Source: an uncultured SAR86 cluster bacterium
GTDB taxonomy: Bacteria; Pseudomonadota; Gammaproteobacteria; Magnimaribacterales; Magnimaribacteraceae
Assembly (NCBI GenBank): GCA_902517565.1
Contig: CABYCU010000007.1
Location: 1 to 52,992 of the forward strand
Length of the DNA: 52,992 nucleotides
Reading direction: 5' to 3'
Part shown: positions 5,758 through 42,846 of the stretch, in pieces
Layout: each line of letters begins with the position of its first letter
Position numbering within the stretch: the stretch's first letter is position 1
Made by a program: the position numbers and the translations under genes
Notes under the pieces: model-generated
The model's input: the letters and a program-made list of their open reading frames with translations, nothing else
Databases searched by the model: none
Told to the model about the DNA's origin: nothing

Positions 5758-6102
5758 ATGCAGTGGACAAACGACCAACCTATCTATCAACAAGTAAGAG
5801 ACCATGTAGTCTCGCTCATAATCGACGGTGTTCTTAAATCGGGCGACTCAATTCCTTCAGTAAGGCAAATGGCTGTAGAAGGCGGCGTTAATCCCTTAAC
5901 GGTCTCTAAAGCTTATCAAGAACTTGTAGATTTAAATATTGTCGAAAAAAGAAGAGGACTTGGTATGTTTATTACCGAAAATGCAAAAAAAGAATTACTT
6001 AGTCTAGAAAAATCTAAATTTCTTAATAACGAATGGCCTAGTACTAAAAAAAGAGCGGAAAGTCTGGGTATAGATTTAATAAAACTTATAAAAAATAATT
6101 GA
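5758..6102 (+). CDS. GntR-family transcriptional regulator, YtrA subfamily
   Basis: Short regulator of 114 residues. The N-terminal winged helix-turn-helix (about residues 8-75) shows the family pattern: PIYQQVRDHVVSLIIDGVL, GDSIPSVRQMAVEGGVNPLTVSKAYQEL and VEKRRGLGMFI. The C-terminal part is only about 40 residues, with no room for an FadR- or UTRA-type effector domain, which is the YtrA layout. It directly precedes an ABC ATPase and permease, the usual YtrA partners, and follows a perfect inverted repeat. It is expected to repress this three-gene operon; the inducer is unknown. Confidence 0.9.
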   Translation: MQWTNDQPIYQQVRDHVVSLIIDGVLKSGDSIPSVRQMAVEGGVNPLTVSKAYQELVDLNIVEKRRGLGMFITENAKKELLSLEKSKFLNNEWPSTKKRAESLGIDLIKLIKNN

Positions 6103-6104
6103 AA

Positions 6105-6980
6105 ATGAGTAGCGATCTAGTTATCAAAGCATCAGAAGTTATAAAAAGTTATGAAGGTAATAATGCCCTTGATGGCATCAATTTAGAAGTAGCTTCTGGA
6201 CAAATATTAGGCTTAATTGGACCTAACGGTGCTGGAAAATCCACATTTCTTCAGACAGTACTTGGACTTATCAATACTGAAGGAAACTTAGAGGTTTTAG
6301 GTTTAGATCCAAGAAAAGATCGACATAAACTTTTGAAAGATGTCTGCTCCATAACCGATGTTGCTGTTTTACCTAAGTGGATGACAGTTGATCAAGTTCT
6401 AACCTATGTGAATGGTGTCCATCCAGGCTTTAACCTTCAAAAATGTCTTTCCATTCTATCTAGAACCAACATAAAACGAAGCTCAAAAATAAAAATACTT
6501 TCTCGTGGCATGGTAGTGCAACTCCATCTTTCTATCGTTATGGCCATTAATGCAAAACTATTAGTCTTAGATGAACCTACTCTAGGTCTTGATCTTGTAT
6601 ACAGAAAAGAGTTTTATTCCCAGTTAATTGAAGATTACTACGATGGCAATAAAACAATTCTTATTAGCACGCACCAAGTAGAAGAAATTGAAGGAGTATT
6701 ATCAGATGCTGTATTCATGAATCAAGGTCGAGTAGTGATGCAAGATTCAATCGAATCTATTAATAAGAAATTTCTGGAATTGAGGCCTAATCAAGAATCT
6801 GTAGAAAAAGCTCAAGCACTTGGCCCCTTGCACCATAGAACTGAGTTAGGTAGAGAAGTTTTTCTTTATGAAGATGCAGATATTAATGAACTGAATGGAA
6901 TTGGAGAAGTAAGACCTCCTGTCATTGCAGATTTATTTATTGCCATAATGGAGAAAACTAGAAAAGAGGTCGAGTTATGA
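6105..6980 (+). CDS. ABC transporter ATP-binding protein (YtrB-like)
   Basis: Cytoplasmic ATPase of an ABC-2 type exporter. Walker A is GPNGAGKST (about residues 40-48), the signature-motif region reads ILSRGMVVQLHLS (an unusual LSRGM form seen in regulator-linked exporters), Walker B is LLVLDEPTLGLD, and the H-loop is ISTHQVEE. I use ATG 6105. A TTG two codons upstream (6099) would overlap the regulator stop and is less likely. It is adjacent to the regulator and overlaps the permease by 4 bp (ATGA), so the three genes form one operon. Substrate unknown; cell-envelope stress or antibiotic efflux is the typical role of such modules. Confidence 0.88.
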   Translation: MSSDLVIKASEVIKSYEGNNALDGINLEVASGQILGLIGPNGAGKSTFLQTVLGLINTEGNLEVLGLDPRKDRHKLLKDVCSITDVAVLPKWMTVDQVLTYVNGVHPGFNLQKCLSILSRTNIKRSSKIKILSRGMVVQLHLSIVMAINAKLLVLDEPTLGLDLVYRKEFYSQLIEDYYDGNKTILISTHQVEEIEGVLSDAVFMNQGRVVMQDSIESINKKFLELRPNQESVEKAQALGPLHHRTELGREVFLYEDADINELNGIGEVRPPVIADLFIAIMEKTRKEVEL

Positions 6981-7891
6981 TGACAGTGCTTTTCACAATG
7001 ATTAGAAGAGAGATTCAAGAGCATAAGCTAGCCTTCATATATGCTCCGTTTGCAGTAGCTTTAGTCTTATGTCTCGTTATTGCCTCAGTTTATTTTGGCA
7101 TAACCGATATTCAAACTAATGAATTTAATTTCTCTACCGAAATATATGATGAGGAGTATCAAGAAGGGATGCTACTTGCCTCGCCGGAAGCCAAGGCAAG
7201 AGTTATACGCGCAGGCTTGATAGTTTTAGGCTTACCTATCCTATTAACGGTTGGTTTTGGATTGTTGGCATACAGTCTTTCAACTTTTGCCGATGAAAGG
7301 AAAGATAGAAGCTTAATCTTTTGGAGATCCATGCCTGTTTCAGATTTAACTACAGTTCTATCAAAGTTATTATTCGTTATCTTTGTCGTTCCTCTACTTG
7401 TTCTTCCAAATATTATTTTACTTCAGTCAGTAGCCATGCTCAGTGCGTCTATTTACTTTGTCACTAATGATATTGTCTCTTTTGGTTATTTATGGACATC
7501 TTATTTCATTACTGACTGGTTCCGTATTATCTTTAGTTTATGGGCTCAAGCTCTTTGGGGTCTACCGATATTTTTATGGTTGATGTTTGCTGGCACTTAC
7601 GCCAGAAGACCTCTAGTTGGAGCCGCAGTTCCAATAGTAGTAACAATTGTTCTGGAGGGAATAATTTTTAAAACCAACGTCGTATTAGAGTTTATAGAAA
7701 ATAGGCTAGGATTTTGGAGCAGGGCAGATAGTTTTCCTGTAGCTTCAGATGAGATACGTGTGGTGGATATATCAGATATTTTCTTAATGTTATCGACTCA
7801 AGCTTTTTGGATAGGCATGCTAGCTTGCATAATTTTAGTGGCTGGTATTGTGTATACCCGTTCTACCAATAATGATTATACGGTTGAGTAA
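6977..7891 (+). CDS. ABC-2 type transporter permease
   Basis: Membrane subunit paired with the upstream ATPase. About six hydrophobic segments are visible, for example residues 18-40, 75-100, 125-150, 185-210, 213-230 and 270-290. The cytoplasmic stretch STFADERKDRSLIFWRSMPVSDL between membrane segments is typical of ABC-2 permeases. It starts on an ATGA overlap with the ATPase stop; a second ATG follows immediately. No substrate can be read from the sequence. It is the last gene before tRNA-Glu and has no visible hairpin terminator behind it. Confidence 0.85.
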   Translation: MMTVLFTMIRREIQEHKLAFIYAPFAVALVLCLVIASVYFGITDIQTNEFNFSTEIYDEEYQEGMLLASPEAKARVIRAGLIVLGLPILLTVGFGLLAYSLSTFADERKDRSLIFWRSMPVSDLTTVLSKLLFVIFVVPLLVLPNIILLQSVAMLSASIYFVTNDIVSFGYLWTSYFITDWFRIIFSLWAQALWGLPIFLWLMFAGTYARRPLVGAAVPIVVTIVLEGIIFKTNVVLEFIENRLGFWSRADSFPVASDEIRVVDISDIFLMLSTQAFWIGMLACIILVAGIVYTRSTNNDYTVE

Positions 7892-7900
7892 AAAATAGAT

Positions 7901-7929
7901 TTGACCTAGAAGCACACCCTCCATACAAT
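7901..7929 (+). promoter_or_regulatory. Sigma-70 promoter for tRNA-Glu
   Basis: A -35 element TTGACC (7901-7906) and a -10 element TACAAT (7924-7929) are separated by exactly 17 bp. The tRNA begins 11 bp after the -10, giving a very short 5' leader. This is the best-formed promoter seen by eye in the window. Confidence 0.8.
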
Positions 7930-7939
7930 GCCCATTTTC

Positions 7940-8014
7940 GGCCCGTTCGTCTAGTGGTTAGGACATCTGGTTTTCATCCAGGCAACAGGAGTTCGATTCT
8001 CCTACGGGCTACCA
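7940..8014 (+). tRNA. tRNA-Glu (anticodon TTC)
   Basis: A full cloverleaf can be drawn. The acceptor stem GGCCCGT (7940-7946) pairs with ACGGGCT (8004-8010), with one G-U pair. The anticodon stem CTGG/CCAG encloses the loop TTTTCAT with anticodon TTC. The T arm GTTCGATTC is flanked by AGGA/TCCT, and A73 is followed by an encoded CCA (8012-8014). The body resembles gammaproteobacterial tRNA-Glu (GTTCGTCTAG in the D region). It stands alone, not in an rRNA operon. Confidence 0.96.
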
Positions 8015-8093
8015 CCTTCCAAAATTTTTAAAAAAAATAATCTTTGTTTGGCTTAAAGATGAAGTAGTATTCTCTTTATTAAGGAGAAATTCG

Positions 8094-8816
8094 ATGAAAA
8101 TATTAAAACCTATCACTTTATTTCTGGGCATCATTAGTCTTAATCTTTTCTCAATGCATCATGAATTATCTAATGAAGACGTTGCAAGAGGTTGGATAGA
8201 AGCAGGTTATGCAGGCAAGGATCAAGCAATTGCCTATGCTAAAAAACATATGGCTGAGGACGGTAGAAATTATCCAGGACGCTACGTAGGCTTTGGTTTT
8301 ACTTACAATCCTGATGCAGAACCAGGAACCATGATCATTACAGCAATAACACCTGAAAGCCCTGCTTCGGAAGTCTTAAAAGTTGGTGATAGCTTTACTT
8401 CAGTGAATGGAATTGCAGTCAATGAAGCTAATATGGATAGATTAAACTTCAGAGGAAAGCCAGGAGAAGAGGTCAAGACAACTCTTAATAGGGATGGAAA
8501 AAATTTAACCATCTCAGTTGCTAGAGGAATAATCTCAGCCAGTTATTCTAAGTCTGAAATCTTAGATAACATGGAATCGGGAAATGTAGATGACTGGGTT
8601 CCAGAAGAATCTAATATCATAGAAGTTCTAAGTAATGATGCGACCGTTTACGTGCTACACCGTTCAAAAGATACCGAGCAAACATCTGGTTTACCCTTTG
8701 AAGCAGTAAGTATGCACAGGTTTACTTTTGATGAGTCTGGAAATGTTGTTAGTATTAGAAGTCTATCTGAAGATCGATTTGTACTCGAACAACAAGGCTT
8801 CACTATATCTAGATAG
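8094..8816 (+). CDS. Secreted or periplasmic PDZ-domain protein
   Basis: A signal peptide occupies about residues 1-20 (MKILKPITLFLGIISLNLFS). A PDZ-like domain spans about residues 60-143, with the carboxylate-loop-like YVGFGF, then PESPASEVLKVGDSFTSVNG and GKPGEEVKTTLNRDGK. There is no protease domain, so it is likely a substrate-binding or regulatory protein rather than an enzyme. The C-terminal 95 residues form an unassigned beta-rich domain containing a SnoaL-like end. AAGGAG lies 9 bp before the ATG. It is monocistronic in appearance, between tRNA-Glu and a DUF805 gene. Exact role unknown. Confidence 0.8.
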   Translation: MKILKPITLFLGIISLNLFSMHHELSNEDVARGWIEAGYAGKDQAIAYAKKHMAEDGRNYPGRYVGFGFTYNPDAEPGTMIITAITPESPASEVLKVGDSFTSVNGIAVNEANMDRLNFRGKPGEEVKTTLNRDGKNLTISVARGIISASYSKSEILDNMESGNVDDWVPEESNIIEVLSNDATVYVLHRSKDTEQTSGLPFEAVSMHRFTFDESGNVVSIRSLSEDRFVLEQQGFTISR

Positions 8817-8842
8817 ATTAAGTAAAATTTCTTTAAAATTTA

Positions 8843-9304
8843 ATGAACTTTTTTGATTCAGTAATTTCTGTATTCAAGAACTATGTAAATTTCTCTGGCA
8901 GAGCAACGAGATCAGAATTTTGGTGGTTTTTCTTTTTTTGCATTCTTTTATACATGCTTACCTTTAGCTTCAATGGTATAGAATTTAGTGAGGTTTTATC
9001 CAATACAGATTTAAGGAAGGGCAACCCTTCTGTTTTGGTTGAACAATTCATTCAGTCTTGGTTCGGAGTTGCTATTCTGGTGACATTTATTCCATCTATT
9101 ACCGTAGCCGTAAGAAGGTTTCATGATTTAGGAATGACTGGCTGGTGGTATGCTGGCTTACAGATAGTGCCTTCGTTGCTTCCCAATATATTTATCTTTA
9201 ATTTGATATCCTTTTCGGCTCTGTTTCTTTTTATATATTTTATGTTGCAAGAAGGAGTAGGGGATAATCGCTTTGGCCCGGGACCATTTAGAGAAGATAT
9301 TTAA
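8843..9304 (+). CDS. DUF805 family inner-membrane protein
   Basis: 153 residues, four hydrophobic segments. The family pattern is clear: an N-terminal FFDSVISVFKNYVNFSGRATRSEFWWF and a central AVRRFHDLGMTGWW, followed by a C-terminal EGVGDNRFGPGP. DUF805 proteins are inner-membrane proteins of unknown function (E. coli YhaH/YhaI type). The end is 1 bp from the end of the convergent M20 gene. Confidence 0.9.
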   Translation: MNFFDSVISVFKNYVNFSGRATRSEFWWFFFFCILLYMLTFSFNGIEFSEVLSNTDLRKGNPSVLVEQFIQSWFGVAILVTFIPSITVAVRRFHDLGMTGWWYAGLQIVPSLLPNIFIFNLISFSALFLFIYFMLQEGVGDNRFGPGPFREDI

Positions 9305-9305
9305 T

Positions 9306-10478
9306 CTATTTAATAGGAGATAAGATTTCTTCAGCCATATTTACCCAATAAGTTGCACCTATGGGGAGTATCTCGTCATTGAAGTCATAACCTGGGTTAT
9401 GAAGCATACACGACCCTTCAACATCTCCATTTCCAATCCAAATATAACTTCCAGGTCTTTCTTGTAGCATGAAAGCAAAGTCCTCTGAACCCATGCTAGG
9501 TGTGGGAGAGGTGTGAACCATATCGCTACCGGAAATCTTTTGTGCTACCTTTTCAGAAATTGATACTTCTTCTGCAGTATTAACTGTAGCAGGGTATCTG
9601 CGTTCATATTCAAGCTCATAACTAGCGTTAAATGCAGAACAAATGGATGCAGTTATTTGCCTCATCTGTTTCTCCAATAACGATTGAATTCTAGAAGAAA
9701 AGCATCTTACTGTTCCTTTCATTTCTATTTCATTGGGTATCACATTATAAGCATCTCCGCCATGAAACTGAGTAACACTTAAAACTACAGGTTCTTGTGG
9801 GTCTATATATCTGCTGACAATTGACTGATAAGCATCAACGACTTTAGTCCCAATTATTATTGGATCGATAGCAGTATGAGGCATTGCTGCGTGACCGCCT
9901 TTACCAATAATTTTTAAGTTAAAGATATCGAATGATGCCATTATTGGACCAGGTTTCATTGCAAATGAACCTACAGGCATACCAGGTATATTATGCATAC
10001 CATAGATAGATTCCACCGGGTATTTTTCAAATAATCCGTCATCAATCATCACTTTCCCTCCACCTTCATTTTCTTCTGCAGGTTGAAAAATAAAAGTTAC
10101 AGTTCCATCAAAGTCTCCTTTTTCTGCTAGATACTTAGCTGCTCCTAATAACATTGTGGTATGTCCATCATGTCCACAAGCATGCATTTTTCCTGGATTT
10201 TTAGATTTATACTCAAAATCATTAGCCTCGTTTATTAATAGTGCATCTAGATCAGCTCTTAGCCCTATAGATCTATTACCAGTTCCTTTTTTTAAAGTAC
10301 CAACTACTCCAGTGCCGGCTAAACCAATTTCAACTTCAATCCCAAAACTTTCTAATTTTTCTGCAACTATTTGAGCTGTTCTGTGCTCTTCAAAGGCTAT
10401 CTCGGGGTGAGAATGAAAATCTCTCCTCCATGTTTGCATTTCGGGTTGTAATTCTTCTAAGTCTTTAATAATTTCCAT
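9306..10478 (-). CDS. M20-family amidohydrolase (hippurate hydrolase / N-acyl amino acid deacylase-like)
   Basis: Zinc-dependent cytoplasmic amidohydrolase that releases amino acids from N-acyl or amino-acid conjugates. The M20D pattern is complete: WRRDFHSHPEIAFEEHRTA, HACGHDGHTTMLLGAA, FQPAEENEGGG, the dimerisation-domain start GKGGHAAMPH, and SMGSEDFAFMLQERPG near the C-terminus. Length 390 is standard. No signal peptide is seen. Substrate cannot be decided from sequence; hippurate, indole-3-acetyl conjugates and N-acetyl amino acids are all known for this clade. Confidence 0.9.
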   Translation of the reverse strand: MEIIKDLEELQPEMQTWRRDFHSHPEIAFEEHRTAQIVAEKLESFGIEVEIGLAGTGVVGTLKKGTGNRSIGLRADLDALLINEANDFEYKSKNPGKMHACGHDGHTTMLLGAAKYLAEKGDFDGTVTFIFQPAEENEGGGKVMIDDGLFEKYPVESIYGMHNIPGMPVGSFAMKPGPIMASFDIFNLKIIGKGGHAAMPHTAIDPIIIGTKVVDAYQSIVSRYIDPQEPVVLSVTQFHGGDAYNVIPNEIEMKGTVRCFSSRIQSLLEKQMRQITASICSAFNASYELEYERRYPATVNTAEEVSISEKVAQKISGSDMVHTSPTPSMGSEDFAFMLQERPGSYIWIGNGDVEGSCMLHNPGYDFNDEILPIGATYWVNMAEEILSPIK

Positions 10479-10560
10479 AAATTTAATTTATATTGATTGA
10501 ATCTACAGAGCAAGAATAAATTGATGTGCGATATAATGGAAACAAAAAATTTATTTGAGA

Positions 10561-33677: not shown

Positions 33678-34436
33678 ATGGACATTATTCAAGAAGTTTT
33701 AGTCAAAAATAATCTTATAACTGCTTTTGTCTTTGTAGGTTTAACAGTCTATATGGCTTATTTAATTTCAGATAAATTTACTCAGGGACGTTTCCATGGT
33801 TCTGCTATCGCTATAATTTTGGCTCTACTATTTGCTTACTTTGTAGGAGTCTCAACAAATGGAGAAAAGGGTGTAGCTGACATAGCTATATTATCTGGCG
33901 TAGGCATATTGGGTGGATCTATGTTAAGGGACTTTGCCATTGTCGCTACTGCTTATGGGGCTAAGTTTAGTGATTTAAGATCTTCTGGTGCGGCTGGTGT
34001 TTTCTCTCTCTTTTTTGGTGTCATTCTCTCCTTTTTATTGGGCGCAATGGTAGCAATTGCATTTGGATATAAAGATCCTGTAAGTATTTCTACAATCGGC
34101 GCAGGTACCGTAACCTTTGTTGTCGGACCCGTCACTGGTTCTGCTATAGGAGCAACTAGTGACGTTATAGCTTTGAGCATTGCAGCAGGACTTGTTAAGT
34201 CTATTCTGGTGATGACGATTACACCAATAGTTGCAAAGAAGATTGGACTTGATAACCCTAAATCAGCAATGGTCTTCGGTGGACTGATGGGAACAAATAG
34301 TGGGGTAGCGGCAGGTCTAGCAGCAGTGGATCCAAAACTAGTACCCTATGGTGCTATGACAGCAACTTTCTATACAGCAGTAGGATGCTTAATCGTTCCA
34401 TCTTTATTATTTTTTTTAGTTGGATTATTTTTTTAA
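33678..34436 (+). CDS. madM: Malonate transporter subunit MadM
   Basis: Large subunit of the malonate carrier. 252 residues with about seven to eight hydrophobic segments. VSTNGEKGVADIAILSGVGILGGSMLRDFAIVATAYG and the C-terminal FGGLMGTNSGVAAGLAAVDPKLVPYG are typical of MadM. ATG abuts the madL stop. No malonate decarboxylase genes are in the window; matB (19235-20728) is the only malonate-using enzyme here, implying activation to malonyl-CoA. Confidence 0.9.
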   Translation: MDIIQEVLVKNNLITAFVFVGLTVYMAYLISDKFTQGRFHGSAIAIILALLFAYFVGVSTNGEKGVADIAILSGVGILGGSMLRDFAIVATAYGAKFSDLRSSGAAGVFSLFFGVILSFLLGAMVAIAFGYKDPVSISTIGAGTVTFVVGPVTGSAIGATSDVIALSIAAGLVKSILVMTITPIVAKKIGLDNPKSAMVFGGLMGTNSGVAAGLAAVDPKLVPYGAMTATFYTAVGCLIVPSLLFFLVGLFF

Positions 34437-34437
34437 T

Positions 34438-34758
34438 ATGAAAACTTATTTATTAATAATTTTTTTTGTCTTATCCTCATGTTCGACGAGTGCAAATTTC
34501 GCTAGCAAAATCTCCGAAGGTGATAGTTTCTTTCTTTGCTTTCCTTCTGCCAATACAGCCTATTCAAAACTAAGTCTTGAAGAGAAAGTTGAACTACAAA
34601 AAAAAATTGCTTTGGAAAAAAATAAACGCAATCTAGTTTGCGAAGAATACTCTGAGTTAACCAGTGCAGAGGATAATTTGGAACAACTTAATCAGAGAGA
34701 AATGTCTAGGAGGCTCAATAAATGCATATATAGAGGAGAGCCTTGTAGATATGATTAA
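34438..34758 (+). CDS. Small lipoprotein of unknown function
   Basis: 106 residues with a lipoprotein signal: hydrophobic MKTYLLIIFFVLSSC, with Cys at residue 15 in the lipobox LSSC. The mature part is mostly helical (KLSLEEKVELQKKIALEKNK) and has four further Cys (LCFPS, LVCEE, KCIYRGEPC). I start at ATG 34438, 1 bp after the madM stop, rather than an upstream start that would overlap madM. No family recognised. The C-terminus overlaps the next gene by 8 bp. Confidence 0.65.
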   Translation: MKTYLLIIFFVLSSCSTSANFASKISEGDSFFLCFPSANTAYSKLSLEEKVELQKKIALEKNKRNLVCEEYSELTSAEDNLEQLNQREMSRRLNKCIYRGEPCRYD

Positions 34759-35092
34759 TAAACTAATATTAATCACCTTTCTTATTTTTTCAGCTTGCGT
34801 TAAAGCAGAATTTTTAAATTTAGAGTGCAAAACACAAAATGAGAATAAAGACAGAATAGCCTCCTTTAACCTTTTGATAGGAACTGAAAGTAAGAAAGCT
34901 ACTCAAATATTAAAAAAAGGGCAGTTACAGATGGATCTCTTAATAACAGACAGTCATTATGAAATTGGCCAGTACACTGATGAAAAGAAGACGGAGTTGA
35001 TACCAGTTATGAAAGTAAATATAGATGACCTAAAGATTGAATATGCAAAATATATAGATTTAGTTAGGCCAATTATTTGTGAAAAAACATAA
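34751..35092 (+). CDS. Small periplasmic protein of unknown function
   Basis: 113 residues. The N-terminus MINKLILITFLIFSACVKA is a cleavable signal peptide ending KA, leaving a mature protein with two Cys (LECKTQ and IICEKT at the C-terminus) that could form one disulfide. I use ATG 34751, which overlaps the lipoprotein gene by 8 bp, rather than an upstream start that would run through that gene. Last member of the 31750-35092 operon. Family not recognised. Confidence 0.6.
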   Translation: MINKLILITFLIFSACVKAEFLNLECKTQNENKDRIASFNLLIGTESKKATQILKKGQLQMDLLITDSHYEIGQYTDEKKTELIPVMKVNIDDLKIEYAKYIDLVRPIICEKT

Positions 35093-35140
35093 GTTATATC
35101 TTTAGTTAGAAGTTGCGTATTTTATCTTGATTATCATGAC

Positions 35141-35485
35141 TTAGTTTATTGTTGGTCTCGTTTGAATTTCTTTCGATGAGGGTACACCACGATTTATTTC
35201 GTCAAGAATATCTACAACATGAGATCTTCCATCGAGTCCAAAGTAATTACATCTTTCATTAAAAAGACTTAGTACTCTGAAAAGGTATCGATAGATCAAA
35301 TCTGCATTAATCTTCATTTCTTTCTCAGCTTCAATAAGCACTTTAAATTTATCTATGAATTCCATAGATTGACTTGTCTTTAAAGGACTACCTTCTTCAT
35401 GCTTCGTTTCAGTTAATTCTCTTTTACGATAAAGTGCAACCAACCTTATCTCTTCTTCTGAAAGCTCAAATCTTTGTTTAATCAT
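35141..35485 (-). CDS. Hypothetical protein divergent from the P19-like gene
   Basis: 114 residues, soluble, predicted mostly helical and charged (FELSEEEIRLVALYRKREL; KFKVLIEAEKEMKINADLIYRYL). No signal peptide, membrane segment or known motif; two residues of note are a single Cys in ERCNYFG and the sequence GRSHVVDILDEINRG. Its start is 31 bp from the perfect Fur box at 35516-35530, on the opposite side from the P19-like gene, so the box could also control it. Convergent in orientation with the preceding operon. Real gene status is likely but unproven. Confidence 0.6.
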   Translation of the reverse strand: MIKQRFELSEEEIRLVALYRKRELTETKHEEGSPLKTSQSMEFIDKFKVLIEAEKEMKINADLIYRYLFRVLSLFNERCNYFGLDGRSHVVDILDEINRGVPSSKEIQTRPTIN

Positions 35486-35515
35486 TAAATTTCCGCAACT
35501 TATATAAAATAGTAA

Positions 35516-35530
35516 TGATAATCATTATCA
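35516..35530. promoter_or_regulatory. Fur box (perfect 7-1-7 palindrome)
   Basis: TGATAATCATTATCA is a perfect odd palindrome and an exact match to the 7-1-7 Fur consensus. The surrounding 19-mer (35511-35529) matches 17 of 19 positions of the classical E. coli iron box. It lies between divergent genes, 50 bp before the P19-like iron protein and 31 bp before the hypothetical gene on the minus strand. Confidence 0.88.
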
Positions 35531-35580
35531 TCTATAATTCAAGTCCATCTTATCCTTTAATAATTAGTTAAAATTAAATC

Positions 35581-36126
35581 ATGATTAGTAAACTTTTTAT
35601 AAGCATCATCTTGTCTCTTACACCTATTCTTCGAGCAGAATTACCTGAGATGGTTATAGGTGAAGAGTCGATATTACCTGGTATAAATCTGGTCTTTGAG
35701 GCGGCGATTAAAGATGATGTTTTTCCTCCAAATCAGTTTGGCCTAGAAAACGAATCAGACATACATATTGAAGTACTTGCTAATTGGAATGTGAATGCAC
35801 CCCAAGGATCACCCTTGAATGGGTTTGTTGCTTATCTACAAATAGAAGCTGAAATTCTAAATCAAGCGAAATCAGCAACTAAAACTATTGTCTTACTTCC
35901 CCATGTTAATCTCACTGATAGTCTGCATTATGCTCTAAATACTTCCTTGCCCGGTAGGAGGGATGATCTATATACGGTGATTTTCACTGTGACTCCTCCC
36001 CATGAATCATCTATTGGATTACATTATGATTGGCGAGAAGAGGTCGGCTCTTTCTTGCCTAAAACTTATAGATTTGTTTATAAGGATTTAGATTTTTATG
36101 AGATAGCCAATTCTTCCAGGAGATAG
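35581..36126 (+). CDS. P19/FetP-like periplasmic iron-transport protein
   Basis: 181 residues with a signal peptide (about 1-19). The mature part follows the Fe2+-transport P19 family (Campylobacter P19, E. coli FetP): PGINLVFEA for the N-terminal strand, SDIHIEV with metal-ligand His62 (P19 has ADIHLE), GFVAYLQIEAE for the PYLTI-containing strand, LLPHVN at the MPMVA position, SLHYALNTSLPG (His116; P19 GPHYG), and GLHYDWREEVG (His148; P19 GRHxD). The P19 Met ligand is replaced by His108. P19 proteins work with a membrane permease (FTR1 or FetM) in iron uptake; none is in the window. A perfect Fur box lies upstream. Confidence 0.8.
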   Translation: MISKLFISIILSLTPILRAELPEMVIGEESILPGINLVFEAAIKDDVFPPNQFGLENESDIHIEVLANWNVNAPQGSPLNGFVAYLQIEAEILNQAKSATKTIVLLPHVNLTDSLHYALNTSLPGRRDDLYTVIFTVTPPHESSIGLHYDWREEVGSFLPKTYRFVYKDLDFYEIANSSRR

Positions 36127-36129
36127 TTA

Positions 36130-37125
36130 TTAAGTAGTAATAACAACTTTTCCTACGAGTTTCCTTTGAGATAAATACTGTACCGCTTCTTTCGCATCTT
36201 CCAGATCAAACTCTTTGCAAATATACGGACTAAAATGGCCTTTCTCACATATTTCTCTAATAGCTCTATTATTCTCAATACCCGCTTCAGGGTCTTTACG
36301 CCCATATTCTCCTGCTCGAACACCTATCACGGAGAAACCTTTAATTAGAGCCATATTTATCGGAAGATCCGGAATTCTTCCACTAGCGAACCCAACAACT
36401 AATAACCTTCCTCCCCAATTTATACACCTCACAGAATGATCAAATACATCTCCTCCAACAGGATCATAAATAACATCTGCACCTTTGCCATCTGTTAATG
36501 CTTTTACTTCTTCTCGAAATTCAACTATTCCGTCTTTGTGAGTCAAGATCGTATGATCTGCCCCCCAATCCTTGGTCAACTTGAGTTTATCTTCTGAAGT
36601 TCCAGTGGCTAACACTTTCGCTCCCAAATATTTACCCAATTGTACTGCCGCCATTCCTACTCCACCGGTAGCACCGTGAACTAATAAATTTTCTCCTTTT
36701 ATTAAATTACCCCTTCTAACCAATGAAACATATGCTGTTAGGTAAGCAGTTTGAAATGCAGCAGCTTGTGAAAAAGAAAGATTGCTGGGCATTATTTCTA
36801 CAGCTTTTTCATTTAGTACCAAGTAATCAGAGAAAGCGCCTTGCCCCAAGGCACCAAAAGTAACCTCATCAGAAACTTTAAAATTTCTAACATCACTACC
36901 AATTTTCTCTATTATTCCAGATCCTTCCATGCCCATCCCAAAAGGTAGATCTGGTTTATGTTGATATTTACCTTGAGTCATGAGGTAGTCTGGAAAGTTA
37001 ACCGAGCTTGCTTTGACTCTAACCAACACCTCATTAGATCCTGGATCTTTAATTTCCTTATGTACTAAGATGACACCAGACATGTCATCACTTAAGAATT
37101 GGCATTCTAAAGTTCTTGATTCCAT
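36130..37125 (-). CDS. Zinc-independent MDR-family NAD(P)H:quinone oxidoreductase
   Basis: 331 residues of the medium-chain dehydrogenase superfamily, quinone-oxidoreductase branch. N-terminal GroES-like domain with VLVRVKASSVNFPDYLMTQGKY and PFGMGMEGSGIIEKIG. Catalytic-zinc ligands and the structural-zinc Cys cluster are absent. The NADPH Rossmann motif is LLVHGATGGVGMAAVQLGKYLGAKV. It starts 2 bp after the GST-like gene on the same strand. Substrate unknown; detoxification of enones or quinones fits the GST neighbour. Confidence 0.9.
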   Translation of the reverse strand: MESRTLECQFLSDDMSGVILVHKEIKDPGSNEVLVRVKASSVNFPDYLMTQGKYQHKPDLPFGMGMEGSGIIEKIGSDVRNFKVSDEVTFGALGQGAFSDYLVLNEKAVEIMPSNLSFSQAAAFQTAYLTAYVSLVRRGNLIKGENLLVHGATGGVGMAAVQLGKYLGAKVLATGTSEDKLKLTKDWGADHTILTHKDGIVEFREEVKALTDGKGADVIYDPVGGDVFDHSVRCINWGGRLLVVGFASGRIPDLPINMALIKGFSVIGVRAGEYGRKDPEAGIENNRAIREICEKGHFSPYICKEFDLEDAKEAVQYLSQRKLVGKVVITT

Positions 37126-37127
37126 TG

Positions 37128-37778
37128 TTATTTACTTAGATCAGAAGGTCCTGAAGGACCTGGTCCATCATATTTATATTCGATTACTTTTTTAAATGCA
37201 TCTCTTTCAAATAGCATATCTGTCCATCTTTTAATATTTGGTTTAAAAGCTTGTTCAATACCTAATGTCCCAGCTAGATATATAGCATAACTGACACATA
37301 TATCGGCGATAGTAAATCTATCGCAGCATAAGTACTCTCTATCATTAAGTGTAGCCTCGAGAAGCTTGAGTCTTGCAACAAACCAACGTTTATAACCTTC
37401 TGCAGCAGCATCGGCCACTCCTGGTTCTTGTAACGTATATCTTATAAAAACTGTTTGCGGAAAGGTTAATGTGGCATCTGCATGAGTTAACCAGTTGAGG
37501 TAGGCTCCATAATCATCTTCATCAACGTTAACTTTAAGGTCTGTGGGACCATATTTATCTACAAGATATTGACTAATGCCAACTGACTCTGTCATTTTGG
37601 TTGTGCCATCTATCATACAAGGGATAGTGCCTAGAACATTTACTTCCAGATATTCTGGTTTCATAAATCTAGGAGGGAAGGGCATCATCTCAATTTCATA
37701 GTCCAAACCCATTTCTTCAGCTGTCCATATGGGCCTTACACCTCTTGATCCTTCAGTACTATAAATTTTTATTGTCAT
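37128..37778 (-). CDS. Glutathione S-transferase family protein
   Basis: 216 residues. The thioredoxin-like N-terminal domain (about 1-80) reads IKIYSTEGSRGVRPIWTAEEMGL and has the GSH-binding GTIPCMIDGTTKMTESVGISQYL (cis-Pro and the TES motif). The helical C-terminal domain contains DREYLCCDRFTIADICVSYAIYL, the N-capping box region. Ser9 or Ser2-like residues at the N-terminus could be the catalytic group. AAAGAAGG precedes the ATG. First of a two-gene unit with the quinone oxidoreductase. Confidence 0.9.
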   Translation of the reverse strand: MTIKIYSTEGSRGVRPIWTAEEMGLDYEIEMMPFPPRFMKPEYLEVNVLGTIPCMIDGTTKMTESVGISQYLVDKYGPTDLKVNVDEDDYGAYLNWLTHADATLTFPQTVFIRYTLQEPGVADAAAEGYKRWFVARLKLLEATLNDREYLCCDRFTIADICVSYAIYLAGTLGIEQAFKPNIKRWTDMLFERDAFKKVIEYKYDGPGPSGPSDLSK

Positions 37779-37808
37779 TGCCTTCTTTCCTCTACTTATA
37801 TTGTATAT

Positions 37809-37838
37809 AAAAAAAGGGGGCTAATACCCCCTTTTTTT
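37809..37838 (-). terminator. Rho-independent terminator after the 37852-38265 gene
   Basis: Seven A, GGGGG, loop CTAATA, CCCCC, seven T: a perfect 12 bp stem that works on either strand. It lies 13 bp downstream of the stop of the minus-strand membrane protein and upstream of the GST start, so it isolates the two transcription units. Confidence 0.9.
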
Positions 37839-37851
37839 CTCTGTAAAAGCT

Positions 37852-38265
37852 TTAACTTTTCTTGGTCATCCAAATTCCAGATAACTGCATAACTAAGACA
37901 GAAAGTAGAAATAATCCCGAGAATACATTAGGTATCAAAGAAAAAGGAGCCCCTGGATCATTAGCGTCAATTAGTATTTGACCGCCAGCTGAAATACCTT
38001 CAGTAGTTTCTTTCAAGTAAGCCAGACCTGCAGCTACTTGATTGAGGTTCCACTCAACTACTGCTCCATTAAATAAATAGAACATACCTACTGTGAGAAC
38101 AAAAACACTTGCTGTAATTTTACCTACAATATTTTTATCAGTGCTATTGTACATTGCTCCTGATATCCAAAAACCCATGCCTATAAATATTGCTACAACT
38201 ATGCCTTGAGTTGCACCAGTACTGAGTGCATTTTGCATATAATTCCATACGTCCATTTCGTTCAT
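37852..38265 (-). CDS. Small three-TM membrane protein, divergent paralog A
   Basis: No known family recognised. 137 residues with three hydrophobic segments (about 16-38, 45-67 and 106-130). ATG 38265 is used because AAAGGA lies just upstream; an upstream ATG at 38337 would put the Fur-like box inside the coding region. It is clearly related to the divergent protein at 38397-38801: shared MDVWNYM/EVWNLFW start, a central VEWN, and a C-terminal GAPFSLIPNVFSGL, ending MQLSGIWMTKK. The promoter gap between the two holds a perfect palindrome. A strong terminator follows. Function unknown. Confidence 0.82.
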   Translation of the reverse strand: MNEMDVWNYMQNALSTGATQGIVVAIFIGMGFWISGAMYNSTDKNIVGKITASVFVLTVGMFYLFNGAVVEWNLNQVAAGLAYLKETTEGISAGGQILIDANDPGAPFSLIPNVFSGLFLLSVLVMQLSGIWMTKKS

Positions 38266-38295
38266 AATTTTTTCCTTTTGGTTGGTAATTTTTAA

Positions 38296-38324
38296 TTGAG
38301 AATAATTCTCAACAACTATATTAT
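38296..38324 (+). promoter_or_regulatory. Putative promoter of paralog B and secreted partner
   Basis: TTGAGA (38296-38301), a 17 bp spacer, then TATTAT (38319-38324), 72 bp before the ATG at 38397. The -35 lies inside the Fur-like palindrome, so binding there would block RNA polymerase. Confidence 0.5.
38297..38311. promoter_or_regulatory. Fur-like 7-1-7 palindrome between divergent paralogs
   Basis: TGAGAATAATTCTCA is a perfect palindrome with the same 7-1-7 layout as the Fur box at 35516-35530, differing only by symmetric substitutions (T to G, A to C) at one position of each arm. It extends to 17 bp (38296-38312). It overlaps the -35 of a plus-strand promoter, as expected for a repressor site. 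Fur is the best guess; another dyad-binding regulator is possible. Confidence 0.65.
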
Positions 38325-38396
38325 GATTAAATAACATGAGTCGTCAATATGTCGACTTTGTTTTAAAAAATAAATATAAACATATAGGAGAATAAA

Positions 38397-38801
38397 ATGG
38401 TTACAGAATTTGAAGTATGGAATCTTTTTTGGCTAGCTAGTTTAGCTAACGCAGCTTGGATGGCAGGATTAGCTTTCCTTATTTGGGTTACTTTTAGAGC
38501 AGCAAATATGGTTGGAGAGTCAGATAATATTTTCTCAAAAGCTGTAGTGACAGTTTTTTGTCTAGTAATAGATTATCAAGTAAATTTCACTTTAGCAGCA
38601 GTTGAATGGGCGAATAATGGCGTGGCTGGAGCTTTTGCTTTCATGCAAAGTTCAGGTACGGAAATAAGTGAAGGTGCTCAAAGATTTGTTGAATATTGGA
38701 GCCCCGGAACACCATTTAATTTAATACCTGATGTTGTTGGTGGGTTGTTAGTACTTACCATTTTGCTCATGCAAATGTCTTCAATTTGGATGAAAAAGTA
38801 A
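38397..38801 (+). CDS. Small three-TM membrane protein, divergent paralog B
   Basis: 134 residues with three hydrophobic segments (about 10-34, 45-66 and 103-129). It shares with paralog A the start EVWNLFW, a central VEWANN, and GTPFNLIPDVVGGL through MQMSSIWMKK at the end; the segment between TM2 and TM3 (SSGTEISEGAQRF) matches KETTEGISAGGQI in A. ATAGGAG precedes the ATG. It is followed after 1 bp by the secreted protein gene, so the two are translationally linked. Function unknown; neither a transporter nor an enzyme motif is visible. Confidence 0.82.
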   Translation: MVTEFEVWNLFWLASLANAAWMAGLAFLIWVTFRAANMVGESDNIFSKAVVTVFCLVIDYQVNFTLAAVEWANNGVAGAFAFMQSSGTEISEGAQRFVEYWSPGTPFNLIPDVVGGLLVLTILLMQMSSIWMKK

Positions 38802-38802
38802 A

Positions 38803-39543
38803 ATGAAAAAACTAGTAATTCTACTTCTGACTTTTTCCTTCTTTGTGAATGCTGAGGATTATAAATACGAACCGATAGCCAATAAAGCTGAGTATTTCTC
38901 TGGTAAATTTAATAGAAACAAAGATATGGAAGATCTATTAGATTGGGGAGATAAATTTGTAGACTGGATGGAAGATAAAAGTGCCTGGGATTCTATGGAA
39001 ACTGTTGTTTTCACTCCTTATTTTTCTGATGATATGCAAAGGGCTGATTATGTTTGGTTAAATTTATGGCCCTCATCAGGAGAACAGTACAATGCTATCG
39101 ATCAATGGTTAAAAGAAGGTGGTTCGATGATGAGCTCTTTACCTGTTACTAATCAAAGGGTTGTAGATGTTTGGCAGTGGGCAATCTCTGCTCCTGAAGG
39201 AGAAATAGGTGATAATGGTTTTGTCAGGTTTACTCAATGTACTTTGAAAGACGGCGTAAGTATGAGAAAAGCATTTGATACATATATGGACTTTGCAAAA
39301 AAAGCAAAATCTACAGGAGATAATATGGGTAGAAAAATGATGTTTGCTTCCTCTGGAGCAGGCATATATGACTACGATTATGTTTATTCTTTATATGGAA
39401 ATACACCTGCAGAATATGGCGAAAATGTCGATAATTTTGGTAAAAATCTTATGGGAACGCCTGAAGTTGAAGCTTTAGATGAAATATCTGAATGTAACAA
39501 TGGAAGAAGTTTCTCAACAGTAAGGATCAAAAAAGCAAAATAA
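38803..39543 (+). CDS. Secreted protein of unknown function, partner of paralog B
   Basis: 246 residues with a signal peptide (about 1-17, MKKLVILLLTFSFFVNA). The mature part is acidic and aromatic-rich. Two stretches (YVWLNLWPSSGEQYNAIDQWL; DYVYSLYGNTPAEYGENV) have the strand-helix rhythm of tandem ferredoxin-like domains, as in NIPSNAP/Dabb folds; that is a by-eye guess. Two Cys (FTQCTLK and SECNNGR) could form a disulfide. It starts 1 bp after paralog B and is closed by a strong hairpin, so B plus this gene form a two-gene unit. Confidence 0.78.
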   Translation: MKKLVILLLTFSFFVNAEDYKYEPIANKAEYFSGKFNRNKDMEDLLDWGDKFVDWMEDKSAWDSMETVVFTPYFSDDMQRADYVWLNLWPSSGEQYNAIDQWLKEGGSMMSSLPVTNQRVVDVWQWAISAPEGEIGDNGFVRFTQCTLKDGVSMRKAFDTYMDFAKKAKSTGDNMGRKMMFASSGAGIYDYDYVYSLYGNTPAEYGENVDNFGKNLMGTPEVEALDEISECNNGRSFSTVRIKKAK

Positions 39544-39545
39544 AG

Positions 39546-39573
39546 AAAAGGGGTCGAGAGGCCCCTTTTTTTT
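39546..39573 (+). terminator. Rho-independent terminator after the secreted-protein gene
   Basis: AAAAGGGGTC, loop GAGA, GGCCCCTTTT, then more T to 39573. The stem is 10 bp with one G-T pair. It begins 3 bp after the stop at 39543, ending the paralog B unit. The 125 bp between it and the next start is AT-rich; it holds a 7-2-7 palindrome (39674-39689) but nothing else I can name. Confidence 0.9.
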
Positions 39574-39698
39574 GGTTCCCTACAAATGCCCTTATCTTTT
39601 CTCTAATTTCCTCAAAATATTACAATACTCTTTTTAAAAAAATTAAACTTACTGTGATTTCAGAAGTCATCTAAATCAATTTATTGATTATAATTCTT

Positions 39699-41816
39699 AT
39701 GAAATTCAAGGAGATTAAAACGACAAGAGCGGTTAGTATTTATTTTCTTATTATTTTAATGGGGTGTGTTTCAGAATCTGAAAAAATGGAATATCCAGAA
39801 ACCAAAAAAGAGCTCTTCGAAGAAAGCCTATTTAGTAAGCAAATTGATGATCCATATCGATGGCTTGAAGACTTTACTAGCAAGGAAGCCTCTGACTGGG
39901 TTAATAAACAGAATGATTTAACGGACACTTTAATCACAAATAAATATCAAAAAGAAATAAAAGAAAAGCTAGAAGATATATGGATAACCTCTGATATAAG
40001 TATCCCTTTTAGAAGAGAAAAAAAGACTTTTTATTATTTTAATGACGGAATTCAGCAGCAGGCTGTTTTCATGATGAAGTATTGCGATGAATGTAAGCCA
40101 AGAGTATTGATAGACCCCAATAAATTCTCAGTTGATGGAACAATTTCTTTATCAGATATAAGTGTAAGTCCGAATGGAGAGTTTCTTGCCTATTCTATCT
40201 CTGATGGTGGTTCTGATTGGAGGACTTGGAGAGTACTGAATATTGATGAGGCAGAGGAGACGGAAGATTTAATTGAGTGGTCTAAATTTTCATATGCTGT
40301 CTGGGAATCAGATAGTTCAGGATTTTATTATCAAAAATATCAAGAACCTGAAGAAACCCTTTCAGATATCAATAGAAGCCCGCAATTATTTTTTCATAAG
40401 CTTGGAGACGAACAAAAGAAAGACAAGCTCGTTTATGAAGATAAAAAAAATCCTGATCTATCTTGGTCTATACATGTACCCGAAAGAGGGTCCTATAGAA
40501 TTTTATCTATAGGAGAAGGTACTGATGAAAGAAACTTTATATCAATCAGCTTTGATAAATCCTTAAACTTTATTCCTTTAGTTGATAAGTTTGAAGCTAG
40601 TTATAGGTTTCTTGGAGGCAATGAAGATACTTTGTGGTTCTTTACAAACTTAGACGCACCCAATGGAAGGATACTATCCCTAAAGATTACAAATCAAAAT
40701 TTCAAGTGGACTGAATTAATAGCTGAAAAAAGTTTTCCTATCTCCAGTGCCTCCATTGCTGGCAATAAATTGATTATAAATTACCTTAAAGATACTCTTT
40801 CAAAAGTAGAATTCTATGACCTTAAAGGTAATTTTATAAAGGAGTTTCCGTTTGAAGGTAATGGAACCTTAGCTGGATTTTATGGCAAATTAGATAATTC
40901 GATTAGTTATTTTGAATTTTCTAATTTTACTTCGCCGCAGAAGATTTATGAGTTGGACCTAGATTCACTTGACTATGATTTGTATTGGGAAACTAAAATA
41001 AAAGATCTGAATGTGGATGATTACTTGAGTAACTTGCAATTTTATAAATCTAAAGATGGAACAGATATTCCTATTCATATAGCTCATCATAAGGATCTCA
41101 AAATAAATTCTGACACACCAATTCTTCTTTATGGTTACGGTGGATTCAATATTTCGATTCTTCCTTACTTCAGTAAAACCTTTTATATGTGGATAAAATC
41201 AGGTGGAGTTTTAGCCATAGCCAATATCAGAGGTGGAGGAGAGTATGGAGATAATTGGCATAAGAGCGGTATGTTATTGAATAAACAAAATGTCTTTGAT
41301 GACTTTGCTTATGCAGCTAAATATTTACATTCAAAAAATATTGGATCTCCTCAAACAACTGCTTCGCTTGGAAGGTCAAATGGGGGGCTATTGGTTGCTG
41401 CAACTATGCTTCAATATCCTGATCTATTCAAAGTCGCTATACCTCAAGTAGGTGTATTAGACATGCTTAGATTCCATAAATTTACAATAGGATGGGCCTG
41501 GGAGAGCGACTACGGAGAACCGGAGAAGGAAGAGGATTTTCTAAACTTATTAAGTTATTCTCCCTATCATAATATTCAAGAAGATGTTTGTTATCCAACT
41601 ACCTTAATCACTACTTCAGCCAGGGACGACAGAGTAGTTCCGGCTCATTCTTATAAATTTGCAGCAAGATTACAGGAGAGACAATCTTGCCCTAACCCCA
41701 TTCTATTAAGAGTAGAATCTCGGGCAGGGCATGGAGCTGGCACTTCAAAAGATAAACAAATAGATGAAATTGCAGATGTTTTTGGTTACGCTTTGAATGT
41801 AATAAAAGAGAAATAG
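39699..41816 (+). CDS. Prolyl oligopeptidase family (S9A) lipoprotein
   Basis: Serine peptidase of 705 residues, cutting short peptides after proline. An N-terminal lipoprotein signal with lipobox LMGC (Cys about 24) is unusual, because most prolyl oligopeptidases are cytosolic or soluble periplasmic enzymes. The beta-propeller spans about 75-430. The catalytic domain has Ser560 in GRSNGG, Asp643/644 in ARDDRVVP, and His678 in AGHGAG, nearly the porcine numbering (554/641/680). ATG 39699 is chosen over an upstream TTG. It is followed 1 bp later by an amidohydrolase. Confidence 0.9.
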   Translation: MKFKEIKTTRAVSIYFLIILMGCVSESEKMEYPETKKELFEESLFSKQIDDPYRWLEDFTSKEASDWVNKQNDLTDTLITNKYQKEIKEKLEDIWITSDISIPFRREKKTFYYFNDGIQQQAVFMMKYCDECKPRVLIDPNKFSVDGTISLSDISVSPNGEFLAYSISDGGSDWRTWRVLNIDEAEETEDLIEWSKFSYAVWESDSSGFYYQKYQEPEETLSDINRSPQLFFHKLGDEQKKDKLVYEDKKNPDLSWSIHVPERGSYRILSIGEGTDERNFISISFDKSLNFIPLVDKFEASYRFLGGNEDTLWFFTNLDAPNGRILSLKITNQNFKWTELIAEKSFPISSASIAGNKLIINYLKDTLSKVEFYDLKGNFIKEFPFEGNGTLAGFYGKLDNSISYFEFSNFTSPQKIYELDLDSLDYDLYWETKIKDLNVDDYLSNLQFYKSKDGTDIPIHIAHHKDLKINSDTPILLYGYGGFNISILPYFSKTFYMWIKSGGVLAIANIRGGGEYGDNWHKSGMLLNKQNVFDDFAYAAKYLHSKNIGSPQTTASLGRSNGGLLVAATMLQYPDLFKVAIPQVGVLDMLRFHKFTIGWAWESDYGEPEKEEDFLNLLSYSPYHNIQEDVCYPTTLITTSARDDRVVPAHSYKFAARLQERQSCPNPILLRVESRAGHGAGTSKDKQIDEIADVFGYALNVIKEK

Positions 41817-41817
41817 A

Positions 41818-42846
41818 ATGGCTAAGATTCATGAAGTTGTAGATTGGATAAACGGTGTAAAAGAGGAGATTATTGACCCTGAGAGAGAAATTATTGATCC
41901 TCATCATCATCTTTGGCATGGTCCTGACAATCCTCCTGGAATAAAAGAAAGTTACAGATATCTTCTCCAAGACCTGTGGAAGGACACTTCGAGTGGACAT
42001 AATATTAAAAAAACCGTATTCATCGATTGTGGACAAGAATACTATTCAGATGGTCCTGAGCAATTCAAACCAGTTGGAGAAACAGAGTTTGTGGCTGAGA
42101 TTGCTGCCCAAGCAACATCGGATCAATCTCAAGCTCAGATATCTGGAATCATTGGGCATGCCAATATGATGCTTGGTTCAAATGTTAAAGAAGTTTTAGA
42201 ACTTCATAAAGAAAAAGGTAATGGTCTTTTTAGAGGTATTCGTCACGCAGGTGGGTGGGATTCAGATGAAAGAGTGAAAAATGCTCATTCTCATCCCACG
42301 CCTCATATATATTTAGAAGATAAGTTTCAAGAAGGTCTTCAAGAGTTGTCTTCTTTAGATATGGTATTTGATACATGGCATTACCATAATCAAATAAAAG
42401 ATCTTACTAAGCTAGCCAAAAACATACCTGAACTAATTATTGTCCATGATCATTTTGGCGGTCCCCTAGGAATTGGCCCTTATGAAGATAAAAGAGAAGA
42501 AATATTTGTTCAATGGCAAGAGGATATTCATGAGTTAAGCCAATGTCCCAATGTTTATTCAAAATTAGGTGGACTAGCCATGCCCGTAAATGGGTGGGAT
42601 TGGCATAAAAAAGAATTACCCGCCACTTCTGATGAAATTATCTTAGAACAAGAAAGATACTATCTTCATACTCTAGAATGTTTCGGATCAAATAGATGCA
42701 TGTTTGAAAGTAATTTCCCTGTTGATAAACAATCAGTTTCTTATCATGTCATCTGGAACGCTTATAAGAAGTTAGTTAATGATTTCGATGATAAGACAAA
42801 AGATGATTTATTCTACAATACTGCAGAGAAGGTCTATAAGTTATAG
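41818..42846 (+). CDS. Amidohydrolase family 2 protein (ACMSD/LigY-like TIM barrel)
   Basis: 342-residue metal-dependent TIM-barrel hydrolase or decarboxylase of the PF04909 type. Metal ligands appear as HHHLW in EIIDPHHHLWHG, His in FRGIRHAGG, IIVHDHFGG for the strand-6 His, and the Asp-equivalent in MFESNFPVDKQ. It lies 1 bp after the peptidase gene and overlaps the convergent acyl-CoA dehydrogenase by 6 bp. Likely substrates include lactones or carboxylated aromatics; not decidable from sequence. Confidence 0.87.
   Translation: MAKIHEVVDWINGVKEEIIDPEREIIDPHHHLWHGPDNPPGIKESYRYLLQDLWKDTSSGHNIKKTVFIDCGQEYYSDGPEQFKPVGETEFVAEIAAQATSDQSQAQISGIIGHANMMLGSNVKEVLELHKEKGNGLFRGIRHAGGWDSDERVKNAHSHPTPHIYLEDKFQEGLQELSSLDMVFDTWHYHNQIKDLTKLAKNIPELIIVHDHFGGPLGIGPYEDKREEIFVQWQEDIHELSQCPNVYSKLGGLAMPVNGWDWHKKELPATSDEIILEQERYYLHTLECFGSNRCMFESNFPVDKQSVSYHVIWNAYKKLVNDFDDKTKDDLFYNTAEKVYKL

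Follow-up and report, generated by a model that had tools for sequence, protein, structure and literature searches.

Genes and features of the locus

The DNA examined here (the window, 52,992 nucleotides) belongs to contig C7 of a 1.21-Mb SAR86 assembly that is 74.6% complete; SAR86 appears under the order name Magnimaribacterales in a passage of PMC11582366. The locus of interest comprises two membrane-protein genes encoded back to back, A and B, followed on the B side by a gene for a secreted protein, S (Table 1). As a preliminary description of this DNA had noted, S begins 1 bp past the stop codon of B, and its product carries a signal peptide, recognized by eye. We placed the start of A at the ATG at 38265; the mechanically called open reading frame extends to 38337. 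The named sequences closest to S are from a genome of SAR86, with 83% identity, and from a gammaproteobacterial MAG, with 82%; the other named matches are mostly from SAR86. Relative to the nearest related locus, L118, dN was 0.07 to 0.10 for the three genes, with dS of 1.05 (A), 1.27 (B), and saturation (S); low dN against high dS thus indicates that A, B, and S are under purifying selection.

The hairpins that close the two units fold well (−18.7 kcal/mol, z −5.4, and −20.4 kcal/mol, z −3.6), in agreement with the earlier claim of strong terminators at both ends. A consensus terminator scan, however, listed neither in the expected sense: the A-side hairpin was absent from its output, and the one at the S end appeared on the strand opposite to S. 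No Rfam element was detected across positions 34000 to 42000.

Table 1. Genes and sequence features at the A/B/S locus (window coordinates)
Feature	Coordinates	Strand	Description
Gene A	37852..38265	-	137 aa; three hydrophobic helices, N-out/C-in by charge; M family
Gene B	38397..38801	+	134 aa; paralog of A
Gene S	38803..39543	+	246 aa; secreted (signal peptide by eye)
17-bp palindrome	38296..38312	.	Holds Fur-type 7-1-7 site TGAGAATAATTCTCA at 38297-38311
Promoter-like site towards B/S	38296..38324	+	TTGAGA-17-TATTAT; -35 inside palindrome; consensus match
Promoter-like site towards A	38320..38347	-	TTGACG-16-CATAAT; palindrome just downstream of -10; consensus match
Terminator-like hairpin after A	37809..37838	-	By folding energy
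Terminator-like hairpin at S end	39541..39574	+	By folding energy
Second perfect Fur-type site TGATAATCATTATCA	35516..35530	.	Between 114-aa gene and P19-type gene
P19/FetP-type periplasmic iron protein	35581..36126	+	PF10634 Iron_transport, E 4.5e-24

A and B belong to a three-helix membrane family

A and B had been proposed to be divergently encoded paralogs with common motifs, and this was borne out: 49 of 135 aligned positions are identical (36%; E 5e-21 at nominal database size), and both proteins carry E-x-x-V-W-N, VEW, G-x-P-F-x-L-I-P, and MQ-x-S-x-IWM. Searches with B as the query gave matches in 65 of 101 relatives, in 34 of 39 when good genomes are considered, and in all four SAR86 families (f1 to f4); we refer to these proteins as family M. 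Iterated HMM searches of the selected loci retrieved 58 M genes, which group into 33 clusters and stand singly or in arrays of 2 to 4. The clusters were drawn from 30 of the 65 M-matching genomes, which were picked for family spread before site scoring. When a 30-row M profile was run against 274 genomes of the class, it matched the source genome and two others of the same order; two marginal matches in this sample, both with internal stop codons, were dismissed as chance. Within that class sample, family M has thus been seen only in the SAR86 order. Phylogenetic analysis placed nine B-type and five A-type sequences in separate clades (support 100/99), implying that the A/B duplication predates the divergence of these genomes.

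Lysine and arginine residues per M sequence are few at the N end (0.20) and in loop 2 (0.43) and more numerous in loop 1 (2.17) and at the C end (1.80); from this charge pattern, rather than from a transmembrane predictor, we derive a topology of three helices with the N end out and the C end in. The structure model of B (pLDDT 92.6) has helices at residues 4 to 40, 45 to 85, and 113 to 131, with a short one at 92 to 100 in the second loop. F54 and W131 are invariant in the family, and none of the metal-ligand-like residues of M is invariant.

The check for a characterized family proposed in the preliminary description returned no convincing match to a known one for A or B. Searches of A, B, and S against Pfam, NCBIfam, and PHROGs gave just scattered weak matches that we take as chance, Pfam searches with 30 M and 23 S members were likewise weak and scattered with none convincing, and sequence searches of the PDB with M and S stayed at chance level. 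As judged from these searches, neither family M nor family S has a convincing Pfam or PDB sequence relative. Foldseek comparison of the B model with PDB and BFVD gave best E values of 1.4 and 0.68, respectively, so that we claim no related fold for B and give matches such as SdhC or ExbB no weight. We also compared M with FTR1-type permeases, which have seven transmembrane segments and an R-E-x-x-E motif. A and B differ from the FTR1/EfeU/FetM permeases in having three helices each and, by eye, no such motif; neither has a Pfam FTR1 match, and the hhalign probability for M against FTR1 is 0.2%, which rules out M as half of an FTR1 protein. One of the 30 M members reached E 0.047 against the FTR1 model. 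Titles, abstracts, and passages of the open-access literature yielded no paper describing the M or S family.

S is a secreted protein with a predicted known fold

Among 25 S sequences, an alanine of the signal peptide region (A17) and two cysteines (C146 and C231) are invariant (25/25 each). The S model (pLDDT 90.3) consists of two fused ferredoxin-like domains, and among the 50 Foldseek matches listed, HemQ and chlorite-dismutase-like chains stood at the top and DyP lower, with TM-scores of about 0.5. S therefore resembles the HemQ/chlorite dismutase/DyP group in its modeled fold (E 6.6e-8 to HemQ, 5loq), but differs in its low identity (7 to 15%), its signal peptide, and its lack of histidine. 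HemQ, chlorite dismutase, and DyP haem proteins have a conserved histidine as proximal haem ligand. Histidine is absent from mature S of this locus and reaches 7 of 25 sequences in the best column of the family, so that His-ligated haem is unlikely; a role for S as a haem enzyme is not supported. PDB 2pgc, a marine metagenome protein, leads the 50 listed matches in TM-score (0.58 to 0.59 normalized by S, 0.68 to 0.69 by 2pgc); it shares 12% identity with S and was missed by the sequence searches. S is thus predicted from its model to have a known, HemQ/chlorite-dismutase-like fold although the Pfam and PDB searches gave it no convincing sequence relative. The earlier statement that the proteins are of unknown type holds for A and B, and for S at the level of sequence, but gives way for S at the level of the modeled fold.

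S matches occur in 54 of the 101 relatives. The source genome has seven, one of them read over a stop codon and five in one array; this five-gene array (L088, G000:C4:76000-88000, positions 5948 to 10516) has a gene for a secreted protein of another group, c31, inside it. No Fur-type site was found at the six other S genes of the source genome, including those of the array. The S profile matched, among the 274 class genomes, the source genome, two genomes of the same order, and one outside the order (G266), and, in a phylum sample of 299, the source genome plus one partial match. The match in G266 (L109, G266:C16:70222-70929) is a clear S relative from the same class (E 3.8e-44).

Linkage of M and S genes

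M and S lie side by side in 15 of the 33 M clusters. A B-type M gene is followed by S on the same strand in eight f1 genomes, with gaps of 1 to 12 bp; in two genomes of one f2 genus, M and S overlap at another chromosomal place, probably reflecting one event. The unit had been described as compact and self-contained. The B-S linkage in f1 agrees with this, but A, B, or S may be missing in relatives: S occurs without B, yet opposite an M gene, in five genomes (G004, G010, G012, G013, and G017), and B occurs without S in G018. Furthermore, M genes elsewhere stand alone or in arrays, and none of the seven f3 loci has an S gene. Gene order around the module is stable within the genus, and our searches recovered no relatives of A or S in viral contigs, of B in phages, or of S in plasmids; on these grounds a mobile-element origin was ruled out.

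In f2, some lone M genes adjoin genes for other secreted proteins of 230 to 244 aa, namely c29 (L081, L091, and L095) and c31 (L083 and L100), which match the S profile weakly (hhalign probability 32% and 38%, respectively) and each other at 2.5%. In f3, M lies near COX3-SURF1-COX15-COX10-SCO1 genes in 7 of 7 clusters (assigned by Pfam in L076 and without Pfam in the others), directly after SCO1 in five, and those five bear a Fur-type site. These are L076, L077, L078, L097, and L098, in which M arrays with a Fur-type site of their own stand right behind oxidase assembly genes ending in SCO1. In the loci examined from f1, f2, and f4, inspection by eye showed no oxidase genes close to M.

A Fur-type palindrome separates A from B

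The intergenic palindrome, TTGAGAATAATTCTCAA, is perfect around a central A, and its core, TGAGAATAATTCTCA, matches 12 of the 14 positions of TGATAATNATTATCA, which we take to be the consensus of the 7-1-7 Fur-type operator. As stated in the preliminary description, it overlaps one −35 element, that of the promoter-like site towards B/S (TTGAGA at 38296-38301; −10, TATTAT), with the qualification that promoter-like consensus matches occur at chance level (7 found versus a mean of 7.1 in shuffled sequences). In an alignment of the intergenic regions of this locus, L118, and L119, the longest invariant run spans 17 columns and contains the whole 15-bp core; it consists of one base to the left of the palindrome and the first 16 palindrome bases, and the last A varies. 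In the stretch that leads from the Fur-type site to B (or S), we noticed by eye a further motif, which reads GTCGTCAATATGTCGAC at 38340-38356 and CGTCAATGTGACG in L118 and was seen in L123 too; this could be an additional operator.

Within the 1.21-Mb assembly, the pattern TGAGAATNATTCTCA has exactly two occurrences, one at this locus and one at C9:14716 before a TonB receptor gene. With two mismatches allowed, the narrower pattern is slightly enriched in the genome (15 sites versus 11 in the control). Zero-mismatch TGAKAATNATTMTCA sites number 21 in six SAR86 genomes. TonB-receptor, SBP, or Peripla_BP_2 genes account for 11 of them, the P19/AhpC unit and M genes for 4 each, and other genes for 2, the gene families having been assigned by Pfam for ten proteins and one more and by eye for the others. 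Of the last two, one is L179, beside genes for a hydrolase and a phosphodiesterase with no apparent link to iron, and the other is L182, next to an Rrf2-type gene (all by eye). In L182 (G006:C12), the site lies between the Rrf2-type regulator gene and an open reading frame that resembles, by eye, an integrase start fused to glutamate-synthase-like sequence. With at most one mismatch, TGAKAATNATTMTCA sites were more numerous than those of the reversed control in each of the six genomes (6 versus 1, 9 versus 1, 15 versus 3, 11 versus 3, 8 versus 3, and 11 versus 3). Thirteen further regions were examined, comprising the zero-mismatch sites that lay outside the other loci and the one-mismatch sites of the source genome. 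The iron-type sites of the source genome are those of the TonB receptor on C9 and of P19, with zero mismatches, and of a TonB receptor and a Peripla_BP_2 gene at C3, with one; a further one-mismatch site (L188) is more than 400 bp from any gene start. In L176, a one-mismatch site lies upstream of an FTR1 gene. The TonB-receptor and periplasmic-binding-protein genes of SAR86 thus have the same operator type upstream as A and B, but they represent known uptake families, unlike A, B, and S.

Sites matching at least 13 of 14 positions were present at 15 of 33 M clusters, compared with 16 of the 471 remaining genes of these loci, a count that uses the best of up to four upstream regions per cluster and thereby favors M somewhat; the count per gene, unaffected by this, was 22 of 58 M genes versus 16 of 465 other genes. 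The site-bearing clusters are distributed as 9 of 15 in f1, 5 of 7 in f3 (at −38 to −43), 1 of 9 in f2, and 0 of 2 in f4, leaving 6, 2, 8, and 2 clusters, respectively, without such a site. Among the 16 site-bearing control genes, 8 are members of the P19/AhpC unit, counted with its divergent 114-aa gene, 2 share the site of M, and 6 are others, including a PEP-carboxykinase/hydrolase pair (named by eye). Outside the 33 clusters, a one-mismatch site was observed 44 bp before an M match in f3 (G036:C1:22450-22464). The source genome has one Fur-family gene (G000:C5:53053-53418, E 6.3e-42), and one such gene exceeded the cut-off in 37 of 41 genomes, the remaining four, which are incomplete, having none.

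The label "Fur-like" that the palindrome had been given is therefore well supported at the level of sequence: the same motif stands at iron-uptake-type genes, there is one Fur-family gene, the box is conserved within diverged intergenic DNA, and it recurs in a second SAR86 family. Its conservation has two sides, the core being kept in L118 and L119 but the site being found at fewer than half of the M clusters. As judged from the sites, control of the Fur type would be frequent in f1 and f3 without extending to M as a whole, and the absence of a site at 18 of 33 clusters suggests that iron control is either not ancestral or not essential to the family.

Iron-uptake genes in the neighborhood

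A P19/FetP-type gene and a divergent 114-aa gene (35141-36126) share a perfect Fur-type site at 35516-35530, which lies 2.8 kb from the palindrome of A and B; in the relatives L064 and L065, an AhpC-type gene is added to this unit. In all 10 f1 genomes with both genes, P19 and M are 1.8 kb apart; three other f1 genomes have P19 and no M match. The gene order of the genus is conserved overall, so the closeness of P19 to M is not independent evidence of a common function. Within the genus, P19 is present in 10 of 19 genomes and FTR1 in 0 of 19 (completeness 50 to 95%, several being incomplete); G004, the most complete (95%), has P19 and M and lacks FTR1 and FecCD. Of the 101 genomes, 3 contain P19 together with FTR1, 18 have P19 and lack FTR1, and 37 have FTR1 and lack P19, a mutual avoidance with Fisher p 0.011. 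P19 and M co-occur (p 0.023), and M and FTR1 are unlinked (p 0.53), all three values being without correction for kinship. The permease survey covered FTR1 and FecCD. FecCD permease genes are present in 13 of the 101 genomes, including the source genome, in which a classical inner-membrane route hence exists.

In passages of PMC6083913 and PMC10783030, P19 (FetP) of Campylobacter and E. coli is described as the partner of the FTR1-family permease FetM, and the Campylobacter P19 cluster as Fur-controlled. The module studied here resembles the FetMP/P19-FTR1 system in adjoining a P19-type gene (PF10634) with a perfect Fur-type site, in its putative Fur-type control, and in its layout of membrane plus periplasmic proteins; it differs in that S is not P19 and in that the genus is without FTR1.

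Interpretation and alternative readings

Our preferred reading, to which we give a probability of roughly 0.5, is that A, B, and S make up an inner-membrane/periplasm module of SAR86 that Fur represses and iron starvation induces. The support for it is the paralogy of A and B, the charge pattern, the secretion signal, the conserved B-S linkage, and the Fur-type site kept in two near relatives; from these we infer Fur binding, A-B and B-S contact, and iron handling. When iron is present, Fur dimers would sit on the single operator at 38296-38312, covering the −35 of the promoter-like site of B/S and lying near the start of the A transcript, and would turn off transcription in both directions; under iron scarcity, the A and the B/S units would be expressed together. 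The paralogs A and B, each with three helices in N-out/C-in orientation, would then enter the membrane and probably assemble with each other, and exported S would dock on the acidic loop that connects helices 2 and 3 on the periplasmic side. Beside the P19-type protein, the resulting complex would most likely handle iron, or a ligand of iron, at the inner membrane or in the periplasm. Against this reading stand the 18 of 33 M clusters that lack a site, the zero-mismatch site at L179, the slight enrichment of the two-mismatch motif, the want of invariant metal-ligand-like residues in M, the six other S genes with no site, and the oxidase assembly genes that precede the M arrays in f3. The parts of the reading differ in strength: Fur control of A, B, and S in the source genome is highly probable given the sites, a physical membrane-periplasm complex is rather likely, and iron handling as its job is tentative.

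A different origin of the site, as the operator of another regulator or a fortuitous palindrome, is very improbable. The two-mismatch motif is hardly enriched (15 versus 11) and promoter-like sites are at chance level, which speaks for it, but the zero-mismatch sites stand mostly at iron-uptake-type genes, the core is kept in diverged sequence, and 37 of 41 genomes have one Fur-family gene each. Somewhat unlikely, in our estimation, is an older, general envelope system of M and a secreted two-domain protein with a non-iron job, for example the binding of hydrophobic or porphyrin-like compounds, that Fur recruited later, mainly in f1 and f3. The presence of M in 34 of 39 good genomes from all four families, the restriction of sites mostly to f1 and f3, the other S genes without sites, some in a tandem array, and the f2 lone M genes that adjoin secreted c29 and c31 proteins all fit such a history; against a wider pairing of M with secreted proteins, c29 and c31 are weakly S-like (32% and 38%) and mutually unlike (2.5%).

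The oxidase neighborhood in f3 would suit yet another role, in which M adjusts or supports a haem-copper oxidase at low iron with S as a periplasmic accessory. The proximity in 7 of 7 f3 clusters, with 5 of 7 M arrays or genes right after SCO1 and provided with a Fur-type site, argues for this role, whereas the lack of oxidase genes (by eye) near M in f1, f2, and f4 and the lack of S in f3 argue against it, and we hold it to be unlikely. Improbable to a greater degree is the proposal that A and B, six helices together, make a hetero-oligomeric inner-membrane iron path, a new kind of small-subunit importer, that replaces FTR1 as the partner of the neighboring P19-type protein in this genus, with S as the periplasmic dock. 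It is compatible with the genus counts of P19 (10 of 19) and FTR1 (0 of 19), with the avoidance of P19 and FTR1 among the 101 genomes, and with the spacing of P19 and M in f1; it is weakened by the absence of invariant metal ligands in M and by the three f1 genomes that have P19 without M.

The preferred reading, a Fur-repressed module of A, B, and S, could be tested in field data, since TonB-transporter genes of SAR86, among those of other groups, are reported as differentially expressed or upregulated in passages of an iron-limitation field study (PMC11069385). Family M, which has no convincing Pfam match in 30 members, bears a Fur-type operator at most of the f1 and f3 clusters examined and gives a testable entry to the iron biology of SAR86, an abundant marine group that is hard to culture and for the most part uncultured. 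M clusters could serve as a marker in metatranscriptomes of iron-amendment experiments, and, to judge from their operators, they would point to an undescribed part of the SAR86 response to scarce iron.
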